This document shows, in pieces, positions 32,910 to 38,015 of a stretch of DNA of 64,000 nucleotides. The notes beneath the pieces are model-generated. The model ran no database searches. It worked only from the letters and a program-made list of their open reading frames with translations, and was not told the origin of the DNA. Positions within the stretch are counted from its first letter, which is position 1. Every line of letters begins with the position of its first letter. The DNA is from a bacterium SCSIO 12827. GTDB lineage: Bacteria > Pseudomonadota > Alphaproteobacteria > Rhodospirillales > Casp-alpha2. A program made the position numbers and the translations under genes. Location of the stretch: positions 3,346,001 to 3,410,000 of the forward strand of contig CP073746.1 of NCBI GenBank assembly GCA_024397995.1, in the 5' to 3' direction.

Positions 32910-33404
32910 TTAATCCGTGTCATCGGGGGCGTCGATGTCGACGGGCACTCCCGGCTTGGCCTTGGAGGCGCGAATCGACAGCGCCGATTTCACGTGGCTG
33001 ACATTGGGCGCGGCGGTCAGCTTGGTCGTCAGGAAGTCCTGATAGGCGTCCCAATCGGCGGCGACCACCTTCAGCAGGAAATCCGTTTCCCCCGCCAGCA
33101 TGTGACATTCGCGCACCTGGGGCCAGGCACGCACGGCATTCTCGAAGGCCTCAAGATCATGTTCCGCCTGGGAGTTAAGCCCGACCTGGGCAAACACGGT
33201 GACATTGAAGCCCAGCATCTTGGGTTCCAGATCGGCATGGTAGCCGCGGATGAAGCCTGCTTCCTCCAACGCCCGGACCCGACGCAGGCAGGGAGGGGCG
33301 GAAATTCCGGCGCGTTTCGACAGTTCCACGTTGGTCATGCGACCATCGTTTTGCAGGTCGCGCAGGATACGCCGGTCAATCTTATCCAGTTTCACGCGCT
33401 GCAT
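32910..33404 (-). CDS. Lrp/AsnC family transcriptional regulator
   Basis: 164-aa regulator with an N-terminal helix-turn-helix (LDKIDRRILRDLQNDGRMTN, about 5-24, then VELSKRAGISAPPCLRRV) and a C-terminal RAM ligand-binding domain ending in HVKSALSIRA. Family members respond to amino acids. It diverges from trxB; the AT-rich gap between them probably holds its own promoter and site. It is convergent with the enolase-like gene. Confidence 0.9.
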   Translation of the reverse strand: MQRVKLDKIDRRILRDLQNDGRMTNVELSKRAGISAPPCLRRVRALEEAGFIRGYHADLEPKMLGFNVTVFAQVGLNSQAEHDLEAFENAVRAWPQVRECHMLAGETDFLLKVVAADWDAYQDFLTTKLTAAPNVSHVKSALSIRASKAKPGVPVDIDAPDDTD

Positions 33405-33587: not shown

Positions 33588-34619
<1,032 letters not shown>

Positions 34620-34685: not shown

Positions 34686-35576
34686 ATGGATTGGGACAAA
34701 CTGCGGGTGTTTCACGCCGTCGCCGAAGCGGGTAGCTTTACCCGCGCGGGCGAAGATCTGCACCTCAGCCAATCGGCGGTCAGCCGCCAGGTCAGCGCGC
34801 TTGAGGAAAGCCTGCGGGTACCGCTGTTCCACCGTCATGCACGCGGGTTGATCCTGACGGAACAGGGCGAACTGCTGTTTCGCACGGCGCATGACGTGTT
34901 TTCCAAGCTGGCCATGGTCGAGGCACGCATCGCCGACAATAAGGACGAGGCCCAGGGGCCGCTCAAGGTGACAACCACCGTTGCCTTTGGCTCGATCTGG
35001 CTGACGCCGCGCATGCGCGAATTCAAGACTCTGTACCCGGACATCGCCATCAGCCTGGTGCTCGCCGACACGGAACTGGACCTCAGCATGCGCCAGGCCG
35101 ACGTCGCCATCCGCCTGGCCCCGCCGAAGCAGCCGGACCTGATCCAGCGCTACATCATGACCATGAACTACCATGTCTATGCGTCGGAAGAGTATCTGGC
35201 CGAACACGGCACGCCGGCCCGGCCCCAGGATTTGGACGACCACGACCTGGTCGTCTATGGCGACGATGCCCGCCCGCCGGTCGAAAACCTGAACTGGCTG
35301 CTGACCGCCGGCGCGCCGCCCGGCGCAACGCGAGAACCGGTTCTTCGGGTCAATTCCATCTATGGCATCTACCGCGCCGTGCAGTCGGGGCTCGGTATCG
35401 GCGCATTGCCCGATTACATGAGCCGCGAGGCCGACAATTTGAAGGAAGTGCTGCCGGAACTACGGGGGCCCTCGATCGAGGCCTATTTCGTCTATCCGGA
35501 AGAACTGCGCAATTCCAAGCGCATCACCGTGTTCCGCGACTTCCTGGTCGACCGCCTGAACCCGGAAAATTTCTAG
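34686..35576 (+). CDS. lsrB: LysR-type transcriptional regulator, LsrB/VtlR-like
   Basis: 296-aa LysR regulator. The N-terminal winged HTH (DWDKLRVFHAVAEAGSFTRA, then LHLSQSAVSRQVSALEE) and the following FHRHARGLILTEQGELL are nearly those I recall for LsrB of Sinorhizobium and VtlR of Brucella/Agrobacterium. The C-terminal substrate-binding domain starts near residue 95. In those bacteria this regulator activates an adjacent AbcR small RNA. Here two LysR-type boxes and a predicted small RNA lie directly downstream on the same strand. The redox or metabolite signal is unknown. Confidence 0.82.
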   Translation: MDWDKLRVFHAVAEAGSFTRAGEDLHLSQSAVSRQVSALEESLRVPLFHRHARGLILTEQGELLFRTAHDVFSKLAMVEARIADNKDEAQGPLKVTTTVAFGSIWLTPRMREFKTLYPDIAISLVLADTELDLSMRQADVAIRLAPPKQPDLIQRYIMTMNYHVYASEEYLAEHGTPARPQDLDDHDLVVYGDDARPPVENLNWLLTAGAPPGATREPVLRVNSIYGIYRAVQSGLGIGALPDYMSREADNLKEVLPELRGPSIEAYFVYPEELRNSKRITVFRDFLVDRLNPENF

Positions 35577-35635
35577 AATCCGCCGACGCGAACTTCACAA
35601 AATTCACAGCCGGCGGCGATTTTTTGTTACCCAAA

Positions 35636-35648
35636 TGCAATATTTGCA
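35636..35648. promoter_or_regulatory. LysR-type box 1 (TGC-N7-GCA)
   Basis: TGCAATATTTGCA is an inverted repeat of the T-N11-A type bound by LysR regulators, with arms TGCAA and TTGCA. It lies 60 bases after the lysR stop and about 88 bases before the sRNA -10. Its centre is 30 bp from that of box 2. Confidence 0.6.
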
Positions 35649-35660
35649 GGGCGATGAACG

Positions 35661-35683
35661 AGATATGCGTGAATTGCATATCT
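35661..35683. promoter_or_regulatory. LysR-type box 2 within a 23-bp palindrome
   Basis: AGATATGC (35661-35668) and GCATATCT (35676-35683) are perfect 8-bp arms around a 7-nt centre. The core TGC-N7-GCA (35666-35678) has the same form as box 1. Two such boxes about three helical turns apart are typical of LysR recognition and activation sites. Confidence 0.65.
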
Positions 35684-35736
35684 GGAATGCAGGTTTGTGA
35701 CTGGTATACCAAGCATGGCGGTTTATATAACCACCA

Positions 35737-35934
35737 TCCCGTCGCCGCCGATTGCTCCTAAGCGCTGTGGCAACGGAACGGATTTTGGGTCTCCTCCCAG
35801 ACCCACCCCGCCGGAGGTCATCCGGCACCGGGACCGCTCCCTGGCCCCCCAGGCCAGCGGCCCCAACGTCTCCCAGACGTGAAGCCTCCCTGTCAAACTC
35901 GCCGGTCCCTTCCCAGGGACCGGCGGTTTTTTTT
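35737..35934 (+). ncRNA. Predicted multi-hairpin small RNA with repeated anti-Shine-Dalgarno motifs (AbcR-like)
   Basis: An intergenic transcript of about 200 nt is predicted. A -10-like TTATATAAC (35723-35731) precedes it and a strong terminator ends it; the 5' end is an estimate. Hairpins: H1 TGGGTCT/AGACCCA (35786-35805, loop CCTCCC); H2 GCCGGA/TCCGGC (35810-35826); H3 CCGCT/AGCGG plus CCTGG/CCAGG (35834-35860, loop CCCC); H4 ACGTCT/AGACGT (35866-35880, loop CCC); then the terminator. Anti-Shine-Dalgarno elements: CTCC 35755, CTCCTCCC 35791-35798, CTCCC 35837, CTCCC 35870, CTCCC 35886, CTTCCC 35909. Position after an lsrB/vtlR-like gene matches AbcR (alpha-r15) RNAs, which silence transporter mRNAs with CU-rich loops. 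It is longer than AbcR (about 115 nt), so it may be a distinct family. Confidence 0.72.
35900..35934 (+). terminator. Rho-independent terminator of the predicted small RNA
   Basis: CGCCGGTCCCT (35900-35910), loop TCCC, AGGGACCGGCG (35915-35925), then G and eight Ts (35927-35934). A perfect 11-bp stem; the strongest intrinsic terminator in the window besides that of atpC. Nothing coding on the plus strand ends nearby, so it must serve a noncoding transcript. Confidence 0.92.
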
Positions 35935-35990
35935 ATGGGCCCCGGGTATGGCTGGCAGTGCTATAGCGCCGGGTCAAATAGTTGGCGGCG

Positions 35991-38015
35991 CTATTGCGCC
36001 GCCTGGGCCCGCAGCGCGACCACTTGGTCCGCCTCCTTGCCCATCAGTTCCTGCAGGTGGTCGAATGCCCATTCGAAGGTGCCGACCCCCATGGTCATGG
36101 AGCGCAGTTCGATCACCAGGTCGTGCATTTCCGATTGCGGTAGTTGGACCTGAACCTCGTCCCAACCGGCCCAACCGGGCTTGGCATCAAAGCCCATGAT
36201 CTGCCCCCGCCGTCCGGACACCAGGCGCTGCATCCGGGACGTGAATTCCGACGGCATGGAGATGACGACCTTGCAGATCGGCTCCAGCAGCACCGGCTGA
36301 CAGTTGGGCATGCCTTCGCGCATGGCCTGCTGGGCCGCCTTGCGGAACGCCATGTCCGAGGAATCGACGTTATGGTACTGCCCATCGGTCAGGGTCACGG
36401 ACAGGTCGACCACGGGAAAGCCCAAAGGCCCACGCGCAAGATACTCGCGCACCCCGGCCTCGACCGCCGGAATATACTGTTTGGGCACCACCCCGCCAGT
36501 GATCGTGTCGCCGAAGGTGAACCCCTCGCCCCGGGCAAGCGGCTTGATATCCAGGTGCACATCGCCGAATTCACCATGCCCGCCCGATTGTTTCTTGTGG
36601 CGCGCGTGCTGGCTGGTCGGCTTGCGGATGGTTTCCTTGTAGGGGACCTGGGGCCGTTCGCTGTCGACGTCGATGTGGAACTTGCCCTTCATCCTGTCGA
36701 GGGTGATCAACAGGTGCATTTCGCCCTGCCCCCAGAGCAGCATCTCACCCGTATCCGGATTGTGCTCGTGGGAGATCGAGGGGTCTTCTTCCATGATCTT
36801 GGCCAGTGCGCCGGACATCTTGACCTCGTCACCGCGGTTGGCCGCGTGCACGGCCATGGAAAACAGCGGCGTCAGGGGCGGTGGCCAGGCCATGCCCTTG
36901 ACCTTACCCGAGGCCGAGACCAGATCGCCGGTCTTGACCGCGTCCATGCGGCCGAGGGCGACCACCTCGCCGACCCCCGCCTTGGCGGTCTTTTCCGTCT
37001 TCTGGCCGAAGGCTTTGGACAGGCCGGACACCCGACCCTGGGCCGACGCCATACCGTCGGTGATGTCGTCGCACCACACCCGGGCAAAACTGAGCTTGCC
37101 CGCATGGCCGGCATGGACGGTCTTGAACACCCGCGCCGCCGCTTCGCCCGACACCGGCTCACCCAGGCGCGCGGCCGTGGTCTCCGGGCCCGGGGCTTCG
37201 TGACGCAGGGCCTTGAGCAGGCGGCGAACGCCGTTGCCGTGTTCGGCCGAACCGAAGAACACGGGCACGGCCTTGCCGTCCTGCAGGACCTTGGTCAGAT
37301 GTTCGAACACCTCCCCCGTCTGCGGCACCACGTCTTCCAGCAGCGTTTCCAGCAGCGCGTCATCGAAATCGGCGAGGCTTTCCAACAGTTCCGTGCGCGC
37401 CGCCGCCTCGCGGTCGCGGATGCTTTCGGGCAGTTCCATCAATTCCGACGGCTTGCCTTCCTGCCAGCGAAAGGCGCGTTCCGACACCAGGTCGACATGG
37501 CCGGTCACGTCGTCACCGTCACGGAGCGGGATTTCCCGCAGCACCAAGGGGCTGTCGGACAGACCCTGCAGGGCGTCCAAAGTCTCGGCGACACTGGCCT
37601 CGGCTGTGTCCATCTTGTTGATGAAGATGAGGTGCGGAATCTGGTGCTGATCCAGGAATTTGAGGATCGGCGCCGCCGTCAGGGCCCGCGCCTGTCCCGG
37701 CTCACAGACCACCACGGCGGCATCGGCGACCATCAGGGCGTTATGGGCGTCCTGCAGCATGTCGATGGAACCGGGACAGTCGATAAAGGTCCAGGGGTCG
37801 CCCAGGTAGGGGGCGCTCACGATATTCATTTCCGTGGACATCTGGCGGGCGCGGGCTTCGGGCGAGCCGTCGCCGACCATGTTACCGTCCTTGACGGAGC
37901 CCTTGCGGTCAATGGCTTCGCATTGACGCAGGATTTCTTCGAGTAAGGATGTCTTGCCGCTTAAGTAGGGGCCGACCAGGGCTGCCACGCGGGGCCGGTT
38001 GTCGGATTTGGTCAT
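35991..38015 (-). CDS. EF-G-like GTPase (elongation factor G paralogue)
   Basis: 674-aa translational GTPase with the EF-G domain layout: G domain (1-about 270), domain II, domains III-V to the end. G1 GPYLSGKTS (15-23) and G4 NKMD (133-136) are intact. The G3 motif reads DCPGS (79-83): the catalytic histidine of PGH is serine. The switch I region is also divergent (RQMSTEMNI). It belongs to the EF-G-like paralogues of alphaproteobacteria, not FusA itself; no rps12/rps7/tuf genes are near. GTP hydrolysis is probably slow or altered. Role unknown. GGGAGGAAACG precedes the ATG. Confidence 0.88.
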   Translation of the reverse strand: MTKSDNRPRVAALVGPYLSGKTSLLEEILRQCEAIDRKGSVKDGNMVGDGSPEARARQMSTEMNIVSAPYLGDPWTFIDCPGSIDMLQDAHNALMVADAAVVVCEPGQARALTAAPILKFLDQHQIPHLIFINKMDTAEASVAETLDALQGLSDSPLVLREIPLRDGDDVTGHVDLVSERAFRWQEGKPSELMELPESIRDREAAARTELLESLADFDDALLETLLEDVVPQTGEVFEHLTKVLQDGKAVPVFFGSAEHGNGVRRLLKALRHEAPGPETTAARLGEPVSGEAAARVFKTVHAGHAGKLSFARVWCDDITDGMASAQGRVSGLSKAFGQKTEKTAKAGVGEVVALGRMDAVKTGDLVSASGKVKGMAWPPPLTPLFSMAVHAANRGDEVKMSGALAKIMEEDPSISHEHNPDTGEMLLWGQGEMHLLITLDRMKGKFHIDVDSERPQVPYKETIRKPTSQHARHKKQSGGHGEFGDVHLDIKPLARGEGFTFGDTITGGVVPKQYIPAVEAGVREYLARGPLGFPVVDLSVTLTDGQYHNVDSSDMAFRKAAQQAMREGMPNCQPVLLEPICKVVISMPSEFTSRMQRLVSGRRGQIMGFDAKPGWAGWDEVQVQLPQSEMHDLVIELRSMTMGVGTFEWAFDHLQELMGKEADQVVALRAQAAQ

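Follow-up and report, generated by a model that had tools for sequence, protein, structure and literature searches.

Within the window, the whole 64,000-nt stretch of DNA that was analysed, a thioredoxin reductase gene, a LysR-type regulator gene and a predicted small RNA (sRNA) gene follow one another behind a divergent Lrp/AsnC-family regulator, and an EF-G-like gene converges on the sRNA from the opposite strand (Table 1). The order Lrp (minus strand), trxB, LysR, sRNA is also that of the S. meliloti lsrB–abcR and R. leguminosarum records, in which two ar15 copies fill the sRNA place after LysR; the first-pass annotation had located the RNA in the abcR place, and the Lrp–trxB–LysR order shared with S. 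meliloti agrees. Genes further downstream differ, with the EF-G-like gene here and ArsR in both rhizobial records. The R. leguminosarum LysR gene at the equivalent place is annotated as VtlR, and the LysR protein here, described at the outset as LsrB/VtlR-like, deserves that description, being 49% identical to its S. meliloti counterpart, which is encoded in the same gene order. Upstream of LysR, trxB is present in 79 of 80 named loci (the best 80 of at least 572) and in 74 of 89 class loci. One rhizobial record, CP090106.1 (L284), is titled pSymB yet is 3.7 Mb long and bears trxB–lsrB–abcR; as we take pSymB to be smaller than this and the locus to be chromosomal, the replicon label may be wrong.

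Table 1. Genes, promoter elements and RNA features at the locus (window coordinates).
Feature	Position	Strand	Basis or remark
Lrp/AsnC-family regulator	32910..33404	−	Divergent from trxB; same position in S. meliloti and R. leguminosarum records
trxB, thioredoxin reductase	33639..34619	+	TIGR01292, 418.5 bits (cut-off 343)
LysR-type regulator, VtlR/LsrB-like, without cysteine	34686..35576	+	
Predicted VtlR operator, ATGC-N7-GCAT-N3-TG-N3-TGCA	35665..35691	+	GCAT starts at 35676
Predicted −10 element, TATATA	35724..35729	+	Sequence; spacing from GCAT
Predicted sRNA, 198 nt	35737..35934	+	
Hairpin 1 (5′ end), CTCC in loop	35739..35776	+	Only 71% of cells paired in genus
CTCC	35755-35758	+	Hairpin 1 loop
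Hairpin 2, CCTCCC loop	35786..35805	+	Loop motif missing in 2 of 7 genus members; stem of some form retained
CTCCTCCC	35791-35798	+	Hairpin 2 region
Hairpin 3 (GCCGGA/UCCGGC)	35810..35826	+	Predicted fold; genus alignment
Hairpin 4	about 35830..35864	+	Predicted fold; covarying stems
CTCCC	35837-35841	+	Mostly paired
Hairpin 5, ACGUCUCCCAGACGU, near-invariant	35866..35880	+	Includes CUCCCA, as AbcR motif M1
CTCCC	35870-35874	+	Only CCC lies in loop
Linker GAAGCCUCCCUGU	35881..35893	+	Anti-Shine-Dalgarno element with highest conservation
CTCCC	35886-35890	+	Unpaired probability 0.5-0.8
Intrinsic terminator and U tail	35895..35934	+	Fold, terminator search, alignments
CTTCCC	35909-35914	+	Sixth CU motif
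EF-G-like protein, convergent with sRNA	35991..38015	−	NF009379, 1023.6 bits (cut-off 513)

The plus strand of the sRNA region has a minimum free energy of −95.1 kcal/mol, against −70.9 ± 4.4 kcal/mol in shuffled sequences (z = −5.56), and none of 200 shuffles equalled it. The minus strand of the same region also folds well (z = −4.9), as is expected of inverted repeats. A plus-strand stem of 12 pairs at 35899–35926 is the sole terminator-like site in 35450–36100. With the six CU motifs all found as well, the region is structured in the way that the first-pass annotation had proposed, although of its four internal hairpins and terminator it is the terminator that was borne out and the internal hairpins number five. 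The loops were further described there as CU-rich; not all of the motifs are open: the copy at 35837–35841 is mostly paired and that at 35870–35874 partly so. Shuffles that preserve the C-rich composition of the sRNA have 2.8 motifs on average, compared with the six found (P = 0.037); across the whole window, both strands, only 0.03% of 6,382 stretches of 198 nt have at least six. The fold, the terminator and the conservation described below are strong evidence for an sRNA gene; the motif count by itself is modest evidence.

The sRNA is present in seven of eight genus genomes, the source genome counted, and gave no match in the eighth (G003). Taken from 61 nt past the start of GCAT to the T run, the seven sequences are 188–198 nt long, with folding energies of −90 to −103 kcal/mol. 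When they are aligned, pairing holds in 89.9% of pair cells and covariation is 0.101, compared with 0.057 in shuffles (0 of 500 as high) and at most 0.062 when the structure is slid along the alignment. Because the sequences are seven related ones and 'further pair types' do not exceed the shuffles (462 of 500 as high), this support is real but moderate. Stems free of compensatory changes and CU loops without conservation had been named beforehand as what would speak against the RNA; the alignments gave another picture, in that the stems covary. The six motifs, by contrast, failed as a defining feature. Only two of them are retained throughout the seven genus sequences, two of which keep a hairpin-2 stem, have lost the CCUCCC loop and carry two CU motifs instead of six; among the 23 sequences whose 5′ end could be defined, the number ranges from two to six.

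Upstream of the RNA, GCATATCTGGAAT at 35676–35688 lies within the palindrome ATGC-N7-GCAT and forms an LsrB/VtlR-type site at the sRNA promoter. The predicted operator is the only place where a genome-wide scan found the full pattern without a mismatch; with up to two mismatches allowed, 16 places fit, compared with 6 for the control, and only the sRNA promoter is perfect. Inspection by eye of the sequence behind one good-looking two-mismatch site, C1:3793904, revealed neither an RNA nor a gene start. LsrB of S. meliloti is reported to activate abcR1 through GCAT-N3-TG-N3-T at −61 to −49 (PMC8844928), and the abcR1 promoters of S. meliloti, R. leguminosarum and Shinella share this layout, their GCAT lying 61 nt ahead of the point where the ar15 match begins. 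Relative to the predicted start at 35737, the site described here lies at −61 to −49, the register of these three promoters; the start was derived from the operator register and is therefore itself a prediction. A sigma-70 consensus promoter was not found in 35450–36100, which dependence of the promoter on an activator would explain.

The upstream arrangement recurs among relatives, for which 59 of 60 non-redundant sequences were covered. A strict LsrB site precedes 23 of the 59, whereas shuffles gave 1.4 and downstream control stretches 3 of 55; the ATGC..GCAT palindrome precedes 45 of the 59, against 4.4 in shuffles and 11 of 55 downstream stretches. Behind 28 of these 45 palindromes a −10-like hexamer is recognisable, with a spacing from GCAT of 48–49 nt in 26 sequences and 53 nt in two; the other 17 palindromes have no such hexamer in range.

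Conservation beyond the genus centres on the 3′ end. Scanning with the LysR protein identified 80 named loci, the best 80 of at least 572, from many metagenome-assembled genomes (Rhodospirillaceae, Rhodospirillales, Alphaproteobacteria) and from Magnetospirillum, Telmatospirillum, Thalassospira and others. In most of these 80 best loci LysR is followed by a 3′ module comprising the ACGUCUCCCAGACGU hairpin, a GAAGCCUCCCUGUU linker and a terminator. The 60 non-redundant sequences yielded alignments A2 (59 rows, without L050) and A3 (48 sequences), and from A3, 32 members of which come from the named loci, we built R1, a covariance model of the last 70 nt of the sRNA. In A3, 89.4% of the module is paired and covariation is 0.179, against 0.085 in shuffles (0 of 500 as high). 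The covariation is seen in the terminator; hairpin 5 tells little about structure because its sequence is almost invariant. Just upstream of hairpin 5, 51 of the 60 sequences have a hairpin whose stems are many and different, which was studied through individual folds because A2 left it unaligned. When 3′ arms were swapped between species, pairing of this hairpin fell to 70% from 100% unswapped (42 of 60 sequences, those with a usable stem of five pairs); the 100% arises by selection, and the drop is the informative figure.

R1 lies downstream of LysR in 65 of the 80 named loci (best 80 of at least 572), within 600 nt in 59 of the 65 and within 1 kb in all 65. Among 192 genomes of the class, R1 matched somewhere at E ≤ 0.01 in 113 and the LysR protein at E ≤ 1e-70 in 116. 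Of 119 class LysR places, 116 were examined (all except those of the source genome, G000, and of G115 and G261), and R1 lies downstream at E ≤ 1e-3 in 68 of them (62 of 89 plus 6 of 27, the 62 within about 530 nt), counts that include any class genome also represented among the named loci behind the model. At these cut-offs a downstream match is absent from 15 of the 80 named loci (best 80 of at least 572) and from 48 of the 116 class loci; some loci without an adjacent match have one a few kilobases off or elsewhere in the genome. The sRNA itself, downstream of the VtlR-like LysR on the same strand, scores 78.3 bits (E = 4.7e-21 in the genome), a match by construction because it belongs to the 48 sequences from which the model was built. 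On these sequence comparisons, 35737–35934 is very probably an sRNA gene, and many alphaproteobacteria have relatives of it next to the same regulator; occurrence in seven of eight genus genomes, covarying stems and R1 downstream of LysR in most loci thus uphold the original sRNA-gene reading.

Individual loci vary. Two R1 copies occur in ten Thalassospira loci and, at a distance, in L050, and in L146 (2095–2690) one LysR gene is followed by three tandem R1 matches with differing hairpins. Weak matches after LysR in L193 (2130–2197, 27.5 bits) and L195 (1757–1823, 25.1 bits) have a CCTCCCTGTT linker and no CUCCCA hairpin. L190 (about 1891–2160) has no R1 match; there, LysR is followed by an LsrB-type site and then three CTCCC, possibly another RNA in the same place. 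On an Azospirillum megaplasmid (L286), a VtlR-like LysR of 61.8% identity has no annotated trxB beside it and no R1 match (best 8.4 bits), so LysR relatives can lack the RNA. Behind an 87-aa ORF, the source genome also holds a second CU-rich sRNA-like element at C1:3635009–3635067 (locus L207, about 1465–1560; R1 31.6 bits), in which CTCCCCTCCCTCCCC is followed by GCCTCCCTGTTAAAACTCGCC and a terminator.

Rfam 15 did not match the sRNA. The four candidates run as covariance models over 35560–35990 were ar15, suhB, SorX and ar14, and the sRNA is not a member of any of them because it falls below their gathering scores. NfeR1 (RF02344 ar14), which has CU-rich anti-Shine-Dalgarno motifs like those here, gave 16.9 bits against 58.8. 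The alphaR8/MmgR/SisA family (RF00519 suhB) gave 23 bits against 41, and the genome's own copy lies elsewhere (C1:662501–662577, 51.9 bits); alphaR8 resembles the sRNA in its reported hairpin, single-stranded CCUCCCU and terminator (PMC12559287). SorX of the Rhodobacterales (RF02784) gave 26.7 bits against 46.6. It shares a CCUCCCUGUU linker and a terminator end, but its consensus has no CUCCCA hairpin and it is reported to be cut from an mRNA 3′ end (PMC9438474). At gathering level, SorX directly follows a VtlR-like LysR in L290 (3537–3623, Paracoccus) and L303 (1601–1668), preceded by the ATGC..GCAT palindrome in L303 and not in L290; some weaker R1 class matches, L303 for example, are SorX by Rfam. 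SmelA075 and SmelA099 have been printed with CCUCCUCCC loops (PMC3927594). No Rfam family reached gathering score in the 20 scanned of the 80 named loci (best 80 of at least 572), and scans of 60 of the 116 class loci gave ar15 in none and SorX in one. Outside the Rhizobiales, a literature search whose coverage excluded most subscription journals brought up no report that we recognised as this RNA at a trxB–LysR locus; the main text of an A. brasilense RNA-seq paper contains neither trxB nor thioredoxin, and LysR once, among predicted targets (PMC7685610).

As a whole, the locus is best explained, in our judgement probably correctly, as the gene of a VtlR-activated, trans-acting anti-Shine-Dalgarno sRNA with its own promoter. 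A VtlR/LsrB-type LysR would bind the predicted operator and activate transcription from about 35737, as the sequence and the abcR1 promoter suggest, and the RNA would end at the terminator, at 35934. The conserved working end would be the last 70 nt, in which a small hairpin showing CUCCC is followed by an open linker, GCCUCCCUG, and then by the U-tailed terminator; this end fits an Hfq-dependent RNA, and the genome encodes Hfq (110 bits), to which the RNA may bind. Base-pairing of the CU motifs with the purine-rich ribosome binding sites of several mRNAs would prevent their translation, as in AbcR, whose livK target and anti-Shine-Dalgarno loop are reported (PMC3712013), and in SorX, reported to repress potA, part of a polyamine transporter (PMC9438474). 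By analogy with these two, occlusion of ribosome binding sites is the likely action, and the targets, as for AbcR, which binds Hfq and represses ABC-transporter mRNAs, are probably genes of transport and metabolism. Which targets are chosen may depend on the 5′ hairpins and the additional CU loops, which differ between lineages. A genome scan for CAGGGAGG followed by ATG gave 26 sites against 3 for a reversed control, most with short or wrong-looking frames behind them. A few starts look real by eye, in frames that we take to be MlaC-like, dienelactone-hydrolase-like, RidA-like and 2′-5′ RNA ligase-like. The scan for complementary sites yielded no coherent target set, and we therefore make no target claim.

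Whether the sRNA is instead AbcR itself in an enlarged copy, the 'expanded AbcR' that the first-pass annotation had entertained, turns on its relation to AbcR1/AbcR2 of the Rhizobiaceae (RF02345 ar15). Both lie downstream of trxB–LsrB/VtlR, with GCAT-N3-TG-N3-T at −61 in an equal promoter register, and both have an anti-Shine-Dalgarno loop, a CUCCCA motif in a hairpin and a terminator; the tandem abcR1/2 pair, moreover, has a parallel in the two R1 copies of ten Thalassospira loci. However, the matches at E ≤ 10 in 35560–35990 did not include ar15 (gathering score 40), although this model scored 97–127 bits on six rhizobial copies (L284, L285 and L288), and R1 did not match true abcR1/2 copies even with filters off; over 39 chosen genomes ar15 gave nothing above its cut-off. 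Of the reported AbcR motifs, M1 (CUCCCA) lies in the first hairpin and M2 (GUUCCC) is single-stranded (PMC5461406), whereas here CUCCCA (35870–35875) lies in the last internal hairpin and M2 is absent, CCUCCCUG standing instead and GCCUCCCUG occupying its place. AbcR is also reported to be 114–121 nt long with three hairpins in all (PMC8844928, PMC3712013), compared with about 200 nt and five internal hairpins here. The first-pass annotation put the RNA at nearly twice the AbcR length; this copy, at 198 nt, is the longest among 23 measured relatives. We consider an enlarged AbcR improbable; the other reading, an RNA outside ar15, is supported.

A functional RNA cut, like SorX, as a 3′ piece from a longer LysR read-through mRNA would account for the concentration of conservation in the last 70 nt and for the lack of a clear terminator right after the LysR stop (z = −0.8), and SorX, reported to derive from a 3′ UTR (PMC9438474), does lie downstream of a VtlR-like LysR in L290 and L303. 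Against such an origin stand the conserved operator with its fixed spacing to the −10 element and the compensatory changes upstream of the 3′ module, and we think it unlikely, although a primary transcript could later be processed, making both true. That the RNA mainly acts as a sponge, titrating a purine-rich sRNA or a protein instead of mRNAs, is suggested by the Caulobacter alphaR8 CU stretch, reported to be complementary to the G/A-rich loop of the sRNA CrfA (PMC12559287); as AbcR and SorX, at the equivalent locus elsewhere, are reported to act on mRNAs (PMC5461406, PMC3712013, PMC9438474), we give this little credence. A TTG-started ORF (35752–36153) crosses the sRNA, but the 198 nt hold no ATG, the ORF continues through the terminator, and indels of 1 and 2 bases between genus members speak against a reading frame, for which reason a coding sequence was rejected; with the next gene on the opposite strand, a short coding sequence or an untranslated leader is scarcely credible. 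A VtlR-activated sRNA made from its own promoter remains our preferred reading.

The regulator differs from LsrB in one respect that bears on its input. Its gene encodes no cysteine, and neither does the matched stretch in 70 of 80 named relatives (best 80 of at least 572) and 56 of 89 class relatives; in contrast, each protein from S. meliloti, R. leguminosarum and Shinella has three. Because the redox response of LsrB has been attributed to two cysteines (PMC8844928), the signal sensed by the cysteine-free LysR would have to be a different one.

What is new here is a family unmatched by Rfam 15; its type of regulator, promoter and action are known. By analogy, this VtlR-linked anti-Shine-Dalgarno sRNA family, absent from Rfam, likely works like AbcR. 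The place after trxB–vtlR could be an ancient alphaproteobacterial regulator–sRNA slot. AbcR (Rhizobiaceae), SorX (Rhodobacterales) and the R1 family would then either have diverged from a single VtlR-activated anti-Shine-Dalgarno RNA or have replaced it in series; the RNA body would have been remodelled while the operator stayed in its register, and the input signal would have changed as well, a cysteine-free VtlR being unable to use a thiol switch. We hold this scenario to be about as probable as its opposite. R1 provides a searchable model for the RNA, with a predicted regulator and operator, and SorX becomes linked to the same VtlR-type regulator. The literature covered describes AbcR for rhizobia as well as for Agrobacterium and Brucella; if Rhodospirillales and many further alphaproteobacterial families have a related circuit, it would be a core control system, untied to host life.
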